The notes beneath the pieces were generated by a model. The model did no database searches and had not been told where the DNA came from. It saw only the letters and a program-made list of their open reading frames with translations. DNA of 64,000 bases. Origin: Streptococcus didelphis DSM 15616. GTDB lineage: Bacteria > Bacillota > Bacilli > Lactobacillales > Streptococcaceae. The stretch spans positions 496,001 through 560,000 of the forward strand of contig NZ_KB904188.1 in the NCBI RefSeq assembly GCF_000380005.1, read 5' to 3'. Shown here one piece after another: positions 12,044 to 62,066 of the stretch (within the stretch, counting starts at the first letter, position 1; each line of letters begins with the position of its first letter). The position numbers and the translations under genes are program-made.

Positions 12044-12397
12044 TTAAGAGTCGCTACCATCATGTAATTGGTTTAACTTCTCATTAATAGTTTTGTTTGC
12101 TGAAGTTGAGTAGTCTTCTACTTTATTTTTAACCTTATCAAATGTCTCACCGACAGACTGTCCTGCACGTTCAGAGTAATGAGTTAAACTGTCTTTTGAG
12201 TCTTCTAATTTATCTGAGGCGAGGTTAACTAAACTATCACTCATTGATTTGAGAGATCCTATTAAATCGTCTAATTTTTGACTACTGTCATCAATGATTT
12301 CTTTTTTGTCATTATCTGCTAGAGATAAATAAGCAATTGTTGCAGCTAGAGATCCTACTGCTAATCCAATTAGTAATCCTTTTTTCTTAGAGTTCAT
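12044..12397 (-). CDS. YtxH domain-containing general stress protein
   Basis: Small 117-residue protein with an N-terminal hydrophobic segment GLLIGLAVGSLAATIAYLSL (residues 7-26), the YtxH/Gas vesicle-like anchor, followed by a long charged helix rich in D, S, K and T. B. subtilis YtxH is a general stress protein; function in streptococci is unknown. The SD GGAGG overlaps the stop codon of the small gene upstream, so the two are translationally linked. The operon promoter shares its architecture with the Gls24 operon in this window, which argues for a shared stress role. Confidence 0.85.
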   Translation of the reverse strand: MNSKKKGLLIGLAVGSLAATIAYLSLADNDKKEIIDDSSQKLDDLIGSLKSMSDSLVNLASDKLEDSKDSLTHYSERAGQSVGETFDKVKNKVEDYSTSANKTINEKLNQLHDGSDS

Positions 12398-12409: not shown

Positions 12410-12565
12410 CTATTTTTTTAGCTTACGGTCGTTGATAATTTTTTTAGCTAACTTTATTGCTGGAAGAACAAGTAAAACTAGCTGGAATAAATCAGCCTTA
12501 TTAACTTTATTTTTCCCATTGTGAGTCGTTTTCATTTTCTGTGATTTATTTTTTCCAAATATCAT
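12410..12565 (-). CDS. small membrane protein upstream of YtxH
   Basis: A 51-codon reading frame (MIFGKNKSQK start, stop TAG). SD AGAGG lies 8 nt before the ATG, and the stop codon abuts the YtxH SD. The N terminus is basic, the middle VNKADLFQLVLLVLPAIKLA is hydrophobic or amphipathic, and the tail KKIINDRKLKK is strongly basic, so it probably sits at the membrane. I do not recognise a family. It is the first gene after the dual-operator promoter and so should be co-regulated with YtxH. Confidence 0.7.
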   Translation of the reverse strand: MIFGKNKSQKMKTTHNGKNKVNKADLFQLVLLVLPAIKLAKKIINDRKLKK

Positions 12566-12638: not shown

Positions 12639-12801
12639 AAGTGACTACTTTAATATCACTAAATAATGGTTAATTAAATTTATAAAATATTTTTTATTAA
12701 ATAATTAGTGTACAAAACCTATTAAAATAAGTTTATTTAGAAGTGACTATTTATTTAATTATTTATGTTGTCATTATATAATTTACTTGTTCTCTAGTCA
12801 A
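12639..12801 (-). promoter_or_regulatory. YtxH operon promoter with two copies of a shared operator-like element
   Basis: Minus-strand promoter: -35 TTGACT (12796-12801), 17-bp spacer, -10 TATAAT (12773-12778). Twenty bp downstream of the -10 is AAATAGTCACTT (12741-12752), and 102 bp further on is AAGTAGTCACTT (12639-12650). Both are followed after 11 bp by TATTTW, a possible second -10. The same layout precedes the Gls24 operon near 62 kb. The rest of the gap up to 12887 is AT-rich and shows no gene. Confidence 0.65.
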
Positions 12802-58523: not shown

Positions 58524-58548
58524 AAAAAAACTAGATAATTCTAGTTTT
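58524..58548 (-). terminator. terminator at the end of the BusR-like gene
   Basis: AAAACTAG / CTAGTTTT stem, 6-nt loop, seven U on the minus strand; it begins at the stop codon itself. Confidence 0.8.
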
Positions 58549-59192
58549 CATAATCCCATAGAGAGATTAAAATAGTTTTTCATACGTGAATAAACTGATT
58601 CATCTCCGACAAAAAAGATATGGTCGCCTTTTTCTATCACTGAATAAGGTCCAGGAGAGATAGTAAATTGACCTTCATGCTCAATAGCTACAACAGTTGC
58701 ACCTGTTTGGTGCCATAAATTTAAGACACCGATAGATTTTCCAAAATGTTCTGAATCCTTACTTACAATAATTTCATAAGGAGCAAGAGGAAAATGTTTA
58801 CTGATATTTTGGCTTTGCATCAAAAATTCATTAACTAAAACAGATAGTTGGTCCATTCCTCTTTGCTGGTCATGCAAATTTTCACGAATACGCTCTTTAA
58901 TAACAGCAATAGAATGTGTTGATTCATATTGATTAATAAATTCCATGGCTTTTTCTTTAGATAAAACGATGGCTCCACTACCATGTTTTAAGGTTAAAAT
59001 ATTAAGGTCAGCTAGTATGTTCAATCCTTTTCGTGCTGTCTCTGGTGAAACATTAAAAGTAGAAGCAATTGTTGTTCTAGATTTTAACTTTTCACCAACT
59101 TCATATTCTCCATTTGCGATTCTCTGGGCAACTGAAATAGCTATTTTCTGATATTTTGAGCTTGTAAATTCACTTTTCTTACTTATGCTCAT
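58548..59192 (-). CDS. BusR-like GntR/RCK_C regulator (candidate c-di-AMP sensor)
   Basis: 214 residues: GntR winged helix (residues 10-75, FNVSPETARKGLNILADL) plus a TrkA-C/RCK_C domain (about 125-205, ISPGPYSVIEKGDHIFFVG). The same architecture as BusR, which represses the betaine importer busAB and responds to c-di-AMP in Lactococcus and S. agalactiae. busAB is not adjacent here, so it must act in trans if orthologous. SD AAAGGAG. Adjacent to the Gls24 cluster but separated by a terminator. Confidence 0.8.
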   Translation of the reverse strand: MSISKKSEFTSSKYQKIAISVAQRIANGEYEVGEKLKSRTTIASTFNVSPETARKGLNILADLNILTLKHGSGAIVLSKEKAMEFINQYESTHSIAVIKERIRENLHDQQRGMDQLSVLVNEFLMQSQNISKHFPLAPYEIIVSKDSEHFGKSIGVLNLWHQTGATVVAIEHEGQFTISPGPYSVIEKGDHIFFVGDESVYSRMKNYFNLSMGL

Positions 59193-59282
59193 AGTATTCT
59201 CCTTTATAGACTATCTAAAACATTCCTATTAAATCATATTTTTGAATAGTTTTCAACAGTATTTTAAGAGGAACGAGGGCAA

Positions 59283-59310
59283 AATTAAGAGCCGGTTTTA
59301 AACCAGCTCT
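59283..59310 (-). terminator. terminator of the Gls24 cluster
   Basis: AGAGCTGGTTT with AAACCGGCTCT (one G-U) around a short loop on the minus strand, followed by TAATTTT. Confidence 0.75.
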
Positions 59311-59346
59311 CCATAACTTACCGATTAGAGTTTCTACAATGAAAAA

Positions 59347-60660: not shown

Positions 60661-60758
60661 GTTAGAATACTTTCTTATCTACGATGGATAAATTGATCCA
60701 GAATACCAGGTTAGAATACTTTCTTATCTACGATGGATAAATTGATCCAGAATACCAG
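60661..60758. repeat. perfect 49-bp tandem duplication
   Basis: Two identical 49-bp units, 60661-60709 and 60710-60758, starting GTTAGAATACTTTC and ending AGAATACCAG. The second unit contains the end of the DUF2273 coding sequence and its stop codon; the first lies downstream of the stop in the gap before the Asp23 gene. The unit length is not a multiple of three, but the stop precedes the extra copy, so the protein is not changed. Confidence 0.97.
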
Positions 60759-60912
60759 TTCTTTTAACGAATAAACCACCATAAACACCCAATACAATAA
60801 ATATTAGTGCTAATAGGGTTCTGAAAAAACCAAATGACATTAGTAACACAGCAAGTACTAGGCCAACTAATCCACCAACAATTGGGTATTTATATTTTTC
60901 GTAAAACTCCAT
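60724..60912 (-). CDS. DUF2273 small membrane protein
   Basis: 62 residues with two hydrophobic segments (YPIVGGLVGLVLAVLLMSFG and LLALIFIVLGVYGGLFV), typical DUF2273 partner of AmaP-Asp23 clusters. It ends in a basic tail ILDQFIHRR. The stop codon lies in a 49-bp tandem duplication. Confidence 0.9.
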   Translation of the reverse strand: MEFYEKYKYPIVGGLVGLVLAVLLMSFGFFRTLLALIFIVLGVYGGLFVKRTGILDQFIHRR

Positions 60913-60921
60913 ACTAATCTC

Positions 60922-61533
60922 CTATTCTACTCGGTCTTTATTTGCAAACCTCATATCAGAATCAGCAATATCTTTAACACGAACTTTGAAATTAACAGGT
61001 TTATCAAGTCCAAAGAATTTATTTAGACCTGTAGTAACACCTTCTTTAATTCCGTTAATTTGGTCTGTAACACCAACACGTGAATCTAATTTACCAGCTA
61101 CATCAATAGTAAACTTACGTTTATATAATTTAGCTGTTACATTTGGATTTGTCATTAGGCCAGCTTCTTTAACTGCTGTACCTACATATCCTTCAATTGC
61201 AGATTTCTTTAAAAGAAGGCTACCTTGCTTTTTACTTAATTGAATCTCAGTATAAGTTCTTGGATAAAAGATAATCACAAGAATTGCTACTAAAGTAATC
61301 ACTGCAAAGGCTGCTGCAACCCAAAAGAAATAGTAATATAAGCTTGGGTTTAAGAAGCCAGAAACATTATCTAAATCCCAAGCTAGCCAATGATAGCTAG
61401 ATGGCATATCAAGATAAGGTTGCGTTACACCCATAACCATGATAAAAATGGATAATAGGATAAGACCTAAGAGACTATAAATAATCTTTAAAGCTTTTGC
61501 CATACCTACCTCTTTCTTCATTAAACGTATCAA
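60922..61533 (-). CDS. amaP: alkaline shock response membrane anchor protein AmaP
   Basis: 203 residues with two transmembrane segments (about 13-33 and 68-88) and a cytoplasmic domain with SAIEGYVGTAVKEAGLMTNP, the anchor that recruits Asp23 to the membrane in S. aureus. It lies 9 bp upstream of the DUF2273 gene and 25 bp downstream of glsB. Confidence 0.9.
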   Translation of the reverse strand: MIRLMKKEVGMAKALKIIYSLLGLILLSIFIMVMGVTQPYLDMPSSYHWLAWDLDNVSGFLNPSLYYYFFWVAAAFAVITLVAILVIIFYPRTYTEIQLSKKQGSLLLKKSAIEGYVGTAVKEAGLMTNPNVTAKLYKRKFTIDVAGKLDSRVGVTDQINGIKEGVTTGLNKFFGLDKPVNFKVRVKDIADSDMRFANKDRVE

Positions 61534-61906: not shown

Positions 61907-62066
61907 AAGTGACTACTTAAATAAAATAACTAGTGTCTTTTTTATCAGAAGACCTTATAAAAAGTAATTTTATAGAGATAAAACACTATATTATAGGTAT
62001 TCCTTAAAGTGACCACTCTTTATTTAATTTATATTGTTATTATACACTTTCTATTATTAATTGCAA
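61907..62066 (-). promoter_or_regulatory. Gls24-cluster promoter with two copies of a shared operator-like element
   Basis: Minus-strand promoter: -35 TTGCAA (62061-62066), 16 bp, -10 TATAAT (62039-62044). Twenty bp downstream is GAGTGGTCACTT (62007-62018) and 100 bp further AAGTAGTCACTT (61907-61918). The first copy is followed after 11 bp by TATAAT; the second after 14 bp by TACAAT. The layout matches that before the YtxH operon. The remaining part of this 350-bp gap shows nothing else. Confidence 0.65.

Follow-up and report, generated by a model that had tools for sequence, protein, structure and literature searches.

Predicted BusR operators at the promoters of the YtxH and Gls24 envelope-stress operons of Streptococcus didelphis DSM 15616

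The window, a stretch of 64,000 nucleotides from Streptococcus didelphis DSM 15616 (contig NZ_KB904188.1, positions 496,001 to 560,000), carries a YtxH operon and a Gls24 operon, both on the minus strand. The YtxH operon begins with an open reading frame for a small membrane-type protein of 51 aa (12410..12565), which yielded no Pfam or NCBIfam match; small proteins akin to it, with a VLQLVLLVIPAVKL-type stretch, are found in the YtxH operon of other species. The YtxH-like protein itself (117 aa; 12044..12397) matches PF12732 with an E value of 1.5e-4, below the curated cut-off, and is matched with a higher score by PF01442, likewise below its own cut-off. The Gls24 operon starts with a GlsB-type membrane protein (Transgly_assoc, PF04226; 61559..61804), followed by the membrane anchor AmaP (NF033218, E 2.9e-49; 60922..61533), a small membrane protein with a DUF2273 domain match (60724..60912), Asp23/Gls24 protein a (PF03780; 60088..60618), a CsbD-like protein (PF05532; 59846..60046) and Asp23/Gls24 protein b (PF03780; 59347..59835). 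To our knowledge, the function of the Asp23/Gls24 envelope-stress proteins in streptococci is poorly understood.

The YtxH operon is preceded by a sigma-70-type promoter, TTGACT-N17-TATAAT (12773..12801, minus strand), which agrees with the consensus at 11 of 12 positions and has its boxes at 12801-12796 and 12778-12773, 17 bp apart. The promoter of the Gls24 operon, TTGCAA-N16-TATAAT (62039..62066, minus strand), agrees at 10 of 12 positions, with boxes at 62066-62061 and 62044-62039 and 16 bp between them. After a gap of 20 bp beyond the -10 box follows a first element, a 12-mer ending in GTCACTT, AAATAGTCACTT at 12752-12741 and GAGTGGTCACTT at 62018-62007, respectively, and a second copy lies 102 bp further on in the YtxH promoter (half-site AAGTAGTCACTT, 12650-12639) and 100 bp further on in the Gls24 promoter (61918-61907), all on the minus strand. 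These four elements, promoters, gaps and repeats had been pointed out in a sequence-only reading, and rereading the minus strand confirmed their positions as well as the TAT found exactly 11 bp after three of the four copies. The same reading took each element for an inverted repeat, AAGT-N4-ACTT, and proposed one unrecognised regulator, for which LiaR and CovR were named as candidates, or an alternative tandem promoter.

A gene for a BusR ortholog of 214 aa (58548-59192, minus strand), the predicted regulator, immediately follows the Gls24 operon and starts 154 bp beyond the last Gls24 stop. The protein has an N-terminal GntR winged helix and a C-terminal RCK_C domain and matches the solved BusR of S. 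agalactiae over nearly its full length (7b5t_A, residues 3-214, E 1.1e-108, 364.9 bits); the C-terminal part matches 7b5u, 7b5w and KtrA as well. Its identity to the protein of S. agalactiae ATCC 13813 is 75%. Mutating R38, R53, K54, G70 or G72 in S. agalactiae BusR reduces DNA binding (PMC8517857), and all five residues are unchanged across an alignment of 12 BusR proteins, corresponding to R39, R54, K55, G71 and G73 of the window after a shift of the published numbering by one. Y13 and W159 are also invariant in this alignment, and K36 (K37 of the window), likewise known from mutation to matter for DNA binding, is nearly so; the DNA-contact and autoinhibition residues established by mutation in S. 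agalactiae BusR are thus present in the protein of the window. The gap before busR (59193-59346, minus strand) contains an 11-bp hairpin with a T-rich tail, possibly an attenuator, and, seen by eye, a promoter-like pair TTGAAA/TTTAAT, possibly a promoter of busR itself. A separate scan lists neither of the two; together they make read-through from the Gls24 genes into busR uncertain.

BusR has been described as a GntR/RCK_C repressor that is activated by c-di-AMP and acts on busAB, the genes for the glycine-betaine transporter (PMC8517857), with repression of busAB reported for S. agalactiae by Devaux et al. 2018, who also state that c-di-AMP is essential for growth of this species in standard conditions (PMC5919688). 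Bandera et al. 2021 give the operator as 5'-GAC-N22-GTC-3', with two sites (pAB1 and pAB2) in the busA promoter; scrambling one half, or altering the spacing by +5 or -10 bp, does away with binding, and both half motifs are needed in EMSA (PMC8517857). Binding of c-di-AMP to RCK_C frees the winged helices, and the rigid coiled coil measures 22 bp (PMC8517857, PMC5919688). The affinity of the S. agalactiae ortholog for its operator is raised by c-di-AMP from a KD of 577 nM to one of 5 nM (PMC8517857). By analogy with this ortholog, for which binding of c-di-AMP has been shown (PMC5919688, PMC8517857), the BusR of the window would bind the nucleotide too.

Set against this operator, the repeated element is the right half only of a predicted bipartite site, which starts directly after the -10 box. 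In the YtxH promoter a GAC at 12772-12770 abuts that box, so that the site reads TATAAT-GAC-N22-GTCACTT and contains GAC-N22-GTC at 12772-12745 on the minus strand; the predicted operator 1 of this operon (TAATGAC-N22-GTCACTT, 12741..12776, minus strand) matches the published consensus. The predicted operator 1 of the Gls24 operon (TAATAAC-N22-GTCACTT, 62007..62042, minus strand) reads TATAAT-AAC-N22-GTCACTT, with AAC-N22-GTC at 62038-62011; spacing and right half fit, and the left half, AAC and not GAC, is one base off. AAC is found at this place in the window and in most close relatives, GAC in five BusR-encoding relatives (G026, G069, G107, G121 and G130). The AAC speaks against BusR binding at this site, given the need for both half motifs in the published EMSA. 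A predicted operator 2 of the Gls24 operon (GAC-N21-GTCACTT, 61907..61937, minus strand) has GAC-N21-GTC at 61937-61911, one bp short of the published N22. The second copy in the YtxH promoter has an AAC at a spacing of 23 (12639..12671, minus strand), a weak site and perhaps a lone half-site.

Among relatives, GTCACTT is kept, and so is the RAC 22 bp to its left, directly after the -10 box. The AAGT-N4-ACTT repeat is present in the letters of the window, but its left AAGT drifts in relatives (GAGT, GTGT, TATA), and the element was dropped as an inverted repeat of its own; what is conserved as an inverted repeat is GAC/AAC...GTC, with its halves 22 bp apart. The consensus is TATAATGACAATATAAaTtAatAaatGtGTtGTCACTT for eight distinct YtxH-type sites and TATAATaACAATATAAAttAAAaaA.gaGTgGTCACTt for 21 distinct Gls24-type sites. 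These sites, like the 27 promoters listed below, were chosen via the spacing-22 pattern and thus do not test the spacing, which is tested by separate spacing scans.

The signal of the element resides in its geometry and not in the 12-mer. When up to two mismatches were allowed, the 12-mer was not enriched in the window (21 found, 31 expected), and AGTSACYACTT with one mismatch was enriched only weakly (seven found, 3.75 expected; eight of 100 shuffles reach seven). AAGTGACYAYT matched at 13 places in the S. didelphis genome, compared with four for the reversed control. Six of the nine matches beyond the window's four lie within open reading frames, three (L008, L011 and L013) not clearly so, and none of the nine is paired. 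At L008 (1501-1511) the element follows an acyl-carrier-protein-like gene and stands beside a palindromic stretch, which we take to resemble a FabT box. A genus-wide search for the paired element gave matches in nine of 147 genomes; among these, the match in G059 is a dispersed repeat, the one in G010 is probably coding, and in G021 the second copy falls within the start of the GlsB coding sequence. The repeats of G059, a genome without BusR, are spread over nine contigs, many of them about 53 bp apart (loci L015, L024 and L026-L043); they begin with AAGTGACCAC or AAGTGACCAT, and their geometry differs from that of BusR.

Of 144 genomes of the genus, 37 encode BusR and 68 encode AmaP, used as marker of the Gls24 operon. 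Stretches of about 1.5 kb upstream of the AmaP genes were examined in 67 of these 68 genomes, one AmaP copy per genome; G005, with a short broken match, was left out, and in G134 the copy on C5 was used, the one on C33 lying at a contig end. A strict site was defined as RAC-N22-GTCACT[T/A] or [A/T]AGTGAC-N22-GT[C/T], and spacings from 12 to 33 were scanned. At spacing 22 it occurred in 16 of the 29 genomes with BusR and in none of the 38 without, i.e., the predicted operator is present upstream of Gls24 operons where BusR is and absent where BusR is not; the genomes are related, however, and these counts, like those that follow, are not independent. At the other spacings the strict site was found in zero to eight of the 29 genomes with BusR and in zero to two of the 38 without. 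The eight genomes with a site at spacing 21 agree with the spacing of many second copies, and a minor peak at spacing 26 (six of 29) is explained in part only by AACTAAC repeats. The plain half-site, GTCACTT or AAGTGAC, was present in 24 of 29 genomes with BusR vs. three of 38 without. Base composition does not explain this contrast, since the upstream stretches are more AT-rich in the genomes without BusR (G+C 0.322 vs. 0.347).

The strict site is missing from 13 of the 29 Gls24 operons in BusR-encoding genomes. Three of these (G057, G072 and G075) differ from it at one or two bases; the other ten have no site at spacings 20-24 (eight that are alike, including G047 and G105, as well as G004 and G142), though a lone GTCACTT persists in six of these ten. 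Regarding the 19 Gls24 operons linked to a named busR, 16 have the site at spacing 22, two at spacing 23, and eight, overlapping with the 16, at spacing 21 too. The Gls24 sites of S. suis HCJ31 and S. minor (L271 and L273) were seen at a spacing of 23 instead of 22.

YtxH-like relatives were found in 12 of the 144 genomes, all 12 of which encode BusR. Upstream of these genes, RAC and GTC[A/T]CT[T/A] occurred at spacing 22 in ten of the 12, at any other spacing in three at most; the strict rule was satisfied in eight. Of the two genomes that remain, G021 has TAC-N22-GTCACTT ahead of a GlsB gene that itself lies upstream of YtxH; in G026 GlsB, a second busR and YtxH are clustered without a clear site. 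When -10 box and site were searched jointly (TATAATRAC-N22-GTCACTT, up to one mismatch), 37 places in 22 of the 144 genomes were obtained. Every one of the 17 exact matches stands before a Gls24 or YtxH operon, as do 27 of all 37 places, distributed over 17 genomes that all encode BusR; eight of the ten places elsewhere are in genomes with BusR and two in genomes without. Counted by genome, the joint pattern is found in 20 of 37 with BusR, three of which (G042, G070 and G127) have off-target places only, vs. two of 107 without. The reversed control is also commoner in genomes with BusR (19 of 37 vs. 17 of 107), a contrast that is smaller than that of the true pattern.

The sequence-only reading expected copy number and spacing to be shared, which holds in relatives for the larger part only: a second GTCACTT-like copy follows 89-104 bp further on in 19 of the 27 listed promoters (13 of 18 Gls24-type, six of nine YtxH-type), but is missing in the remaining eight, among them the YtxH-type promoters of G015, G071 and G078. 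The 13 second copies of Gls24-type have a RAC at spacing 21 in seven cases and at spacing 22 in four (11 of 13), other spacings yielding a mean of 0.3 each. Only one of the six YtxH-type second copies has a RAC at spacing 22, that of the window having it at 23. From these counts, many Gls24 promoters have two bipartite sites, as busA does, and the YtxH promoters have one, often accompanied by a lone half.

The busA promoter served as a positive control. Thirty of the 37 genomes with BusR were searched, 29 of which have busA, using 400 bp upstream and spacings from 16 to 29. GAC-N22-GTC was found in 13 of the 29, and in at most four at any other spacing; the exact half-site was present in 21. 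Under the strict rule the counts were spread over several spacings (13 at 22, 12 at 26 and ten at 21), a consequence of the weak right half, GT[C/T]. The busA site of S. agalactiae (G012) reads AAGTGAC-N22-GTCACTT, and many Enterococcus loci have AAGTGACCAC...GTATGGTCACTT or the like, i.e., an element of the kind first noticed in the window at both ends. The busA promoter of S. didelphis itself has AAGTGAC-N22-TTC and a lone GTCACTT, which is weaker than the sites of the two stress operons; a full GAC-N22-GTC is absent from it. AAGTGAC-N22-GTCACTT with up to three mismatches matched at 92 places in this genome and at 62 in the control, so that such a scan alone would not single out the YtxH and Gls24 sites. 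Among the matches listed, seven have two mismatches, one of them being the YtxH site; of the other six, four lie in open reading frames and two (L047 and L049) have no open reading frame over 300 bases.

The gene neighbourhood was compared in 80 named busR loci, 19 of which are linked to gls24: in 18 of these the gene comes after the Gls24 operon, and in one (L284) it is embedded in it. In named S. sanguinis loci busR stands beside busA, as the enterococcal busR does. S. gallinaceus and a record named S. gallolyticus (L263 and L264) have busBA, gls24 and busR in one divergent cluster, perhaps the ancestral arrangement. S. ferus and G026 each have two busR copies. In S. ferus (L265 and L272) gls24 neighbours one of them and busA the other; in G026 (L101 and L181) one copy precedes amaP-gls24 and the other is flanked by GlsB and YtxH. 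In the gene numbering of group B streptococcus (GBS), BusR bears the number gbs1201 (PMC5919688) and the Gls24 homologs the numbers gbs1202 and gbs1204, which points to the same busR-Gls24 neighbourhood; locus L262 of S. agalactiae ATCC 13813 displays it directly.

Taken together, the paired elements are very probably the right halves of BusR-type operators, and BusR is predicted to bind and repress both envelope-stress operons. The proposal of one regulator common to both is supported. That regulator need not be called unrecognised, as motif and spacing are those of the published BusR operator and busR itself lies in the window. Since GAC or AAC abuts the -10 box, the predicted operator would extend as far as about position +26, counted from the presumed transcription start, and a tetrameric BusR on the start region would block RNA polymerase. 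The copy about 100 bp further on would serve as an additional site that BusR binds separately; busAB likewise has two sites. At high c-di-AMP the YtxH operon, the Gls24 operon and busAB would all be silent; they would be switched on together when c-di-AMP falls or the ionic strength changes. Given its position immediately behind the Gls24 genes, busR might be transcribed in part by read-through from them and so come under negative feedback, which we put forward as a proposal. One predicted switch is likely to control both envelope stress proteins and osmolyte uptake.

Occupation of both sites of one operon by BusR, with the 100 bp between them looped out, would be a variant of this explanation compatible with it. 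The distance of 89-104 bp, where a second copy exists (19 of 27 promoters), is near ten helical turns. The spacing nevertheless varies over 15 bp, eight promoters do without a second copy, the second YtxH copies mostly have no left half, and looping was sought in vitro with the two busA sites and not seen (PMC8517857). The loop is retained as a weak variant and considered improbable.

A companion regulator inherited together with BusR (e.g., the two-component regulators BceR, LiaR or CovR) could bind AAGTGACYAC and control both operons. Co-occurrence alone cannot separate BusR from such a companion gene, and deletion of BceR lowers Gls24 in GBS (PMC6351488). The same half-site and 22-bp spacing, however, are present before busA, a proven BusR target, also in enterococci, and it is the busR gene that adjoins gls24; nothing in the analysis points to LiaR or CovR. 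We know of no other regulator with a 22-bp spacing, and regard control by a companion as improbable. The TAT(A/T) box 11 bp beyond the element might be the -10 box of a second, unusual tandem promoter, as three of the four copies in the window would suggest. In the homologous promoters, those of the window included, TAT stands at this position in only three of 20 first and five of 16 second copies, and it is the canonical upstream promoter that is conserved instead; the tandem-promoter reading was dropped for this lack of conservation and is judged highly improbable. That AT-rich promoters merely resemble each other by chance would agree with the 12-mer not being enriched in the window when mismatches are allowed and with the many matches of degenerate scans. 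It is at odds with the peak at spacing 22, the contrast between genomes with and without BusR, and the confinement of the exact joint-pattern matches from 144 genomes to the same two operon types, which leave chance a next to negligible place.

Published expression data on GBS Gls24 genes come from stationary phase, blood, glucose and amniotic fluid, none of which tests BusR. The genes gbs1202 and gbs1204 are among those raised 30-64-fold in stationary phase and are reported as raised in blood; gbs1202 is down (-2.4) in amniotic fluid, and 55 mM glucose lowers three Gls24-type genes and raises a betaine transporter (sag0241-0244). The amniotic-fluid and glucose results, like the fall of Gls24 on loss of BceR, are counted against BusR control of Gls24. 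A study of gdpP in S. gallolyticus reports no BusR in strain UCN34 and hence is no test of the BusR model.

Regulator and operator are known; the YtxH and Gls24 targets appear to be new. In the literature searched, to which subscription papers and preprints did not belong, no paper was found that contained both BusR and Gls24, both c-di-AMP and Gls24, or Gls24, YtxH, Streptococcus and regulon together; the sole paper joining cyclic di-AMP, Streptococcus and Asp23 concerns B. subtilis. In the two BusR studies, it is stated that whether BusR-type regulators control osmoregulation genes only remains to be determined (Devaux et al., PMC5919688) and that further BusR targets are not yet experimentally characterized (Bandera et al., PMC8517857). 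The present analysis predicts two BusR target operons at base level in many streptococci, including S. agalactiae for gls24. If this is true, c-di-AMP would reach the Gls24/Asp23 envelope-stress proteins, which would suggest that these proteins act in turgor or membrane tension. More broadly, we think it probable that BusR is the c-di-AMP arm of envelope-stress control and not a single-target osmolyte repressor. In many streptococci gls24 would be its home operon and the YtxH operon a second target, with busAB as one remote member; the Gls24/Asp23 and YtxH proteins would then take part in turgor homeostasis, their level being set directly by c-di-AMP.

The closest known counterpart is the busAB operator of S. 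agalactiae and of busA in L. lactis, with which the present sites share inverted GAC...GTC halves at a distance of 22 bp, the presence of two sites in the promoter region, of which one lies on the promoter core, and an orthologous regulator. The predicted targets here, however, are the YtxH and Gls24/Asp23 stress operons and not a glycine-betaine transporter, the site lies just after the -10 box, and the left half of the Gls24 site is AAC. The Asp23/Gls24-AmaP-GlsB-CsbD envelope stress operons known from elsewhere have the same protein families side by side, whereas here they are credited in addition with a predicted regulatory site and a neighbouring regulator gene. An extension of the BusR regulon by computation has also been made for L. 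lactis IO-1, but for other genes (arsC, hom and thrB), and gls24 does not occur in that paper (PMC7051946). Atu1419, a tetrameric GntR repressor that loops DNA, is similar to BusR in combining a tetramer with two distant sites, and differs in that a loop was not seen for BusR in vitro (PMC8517857).
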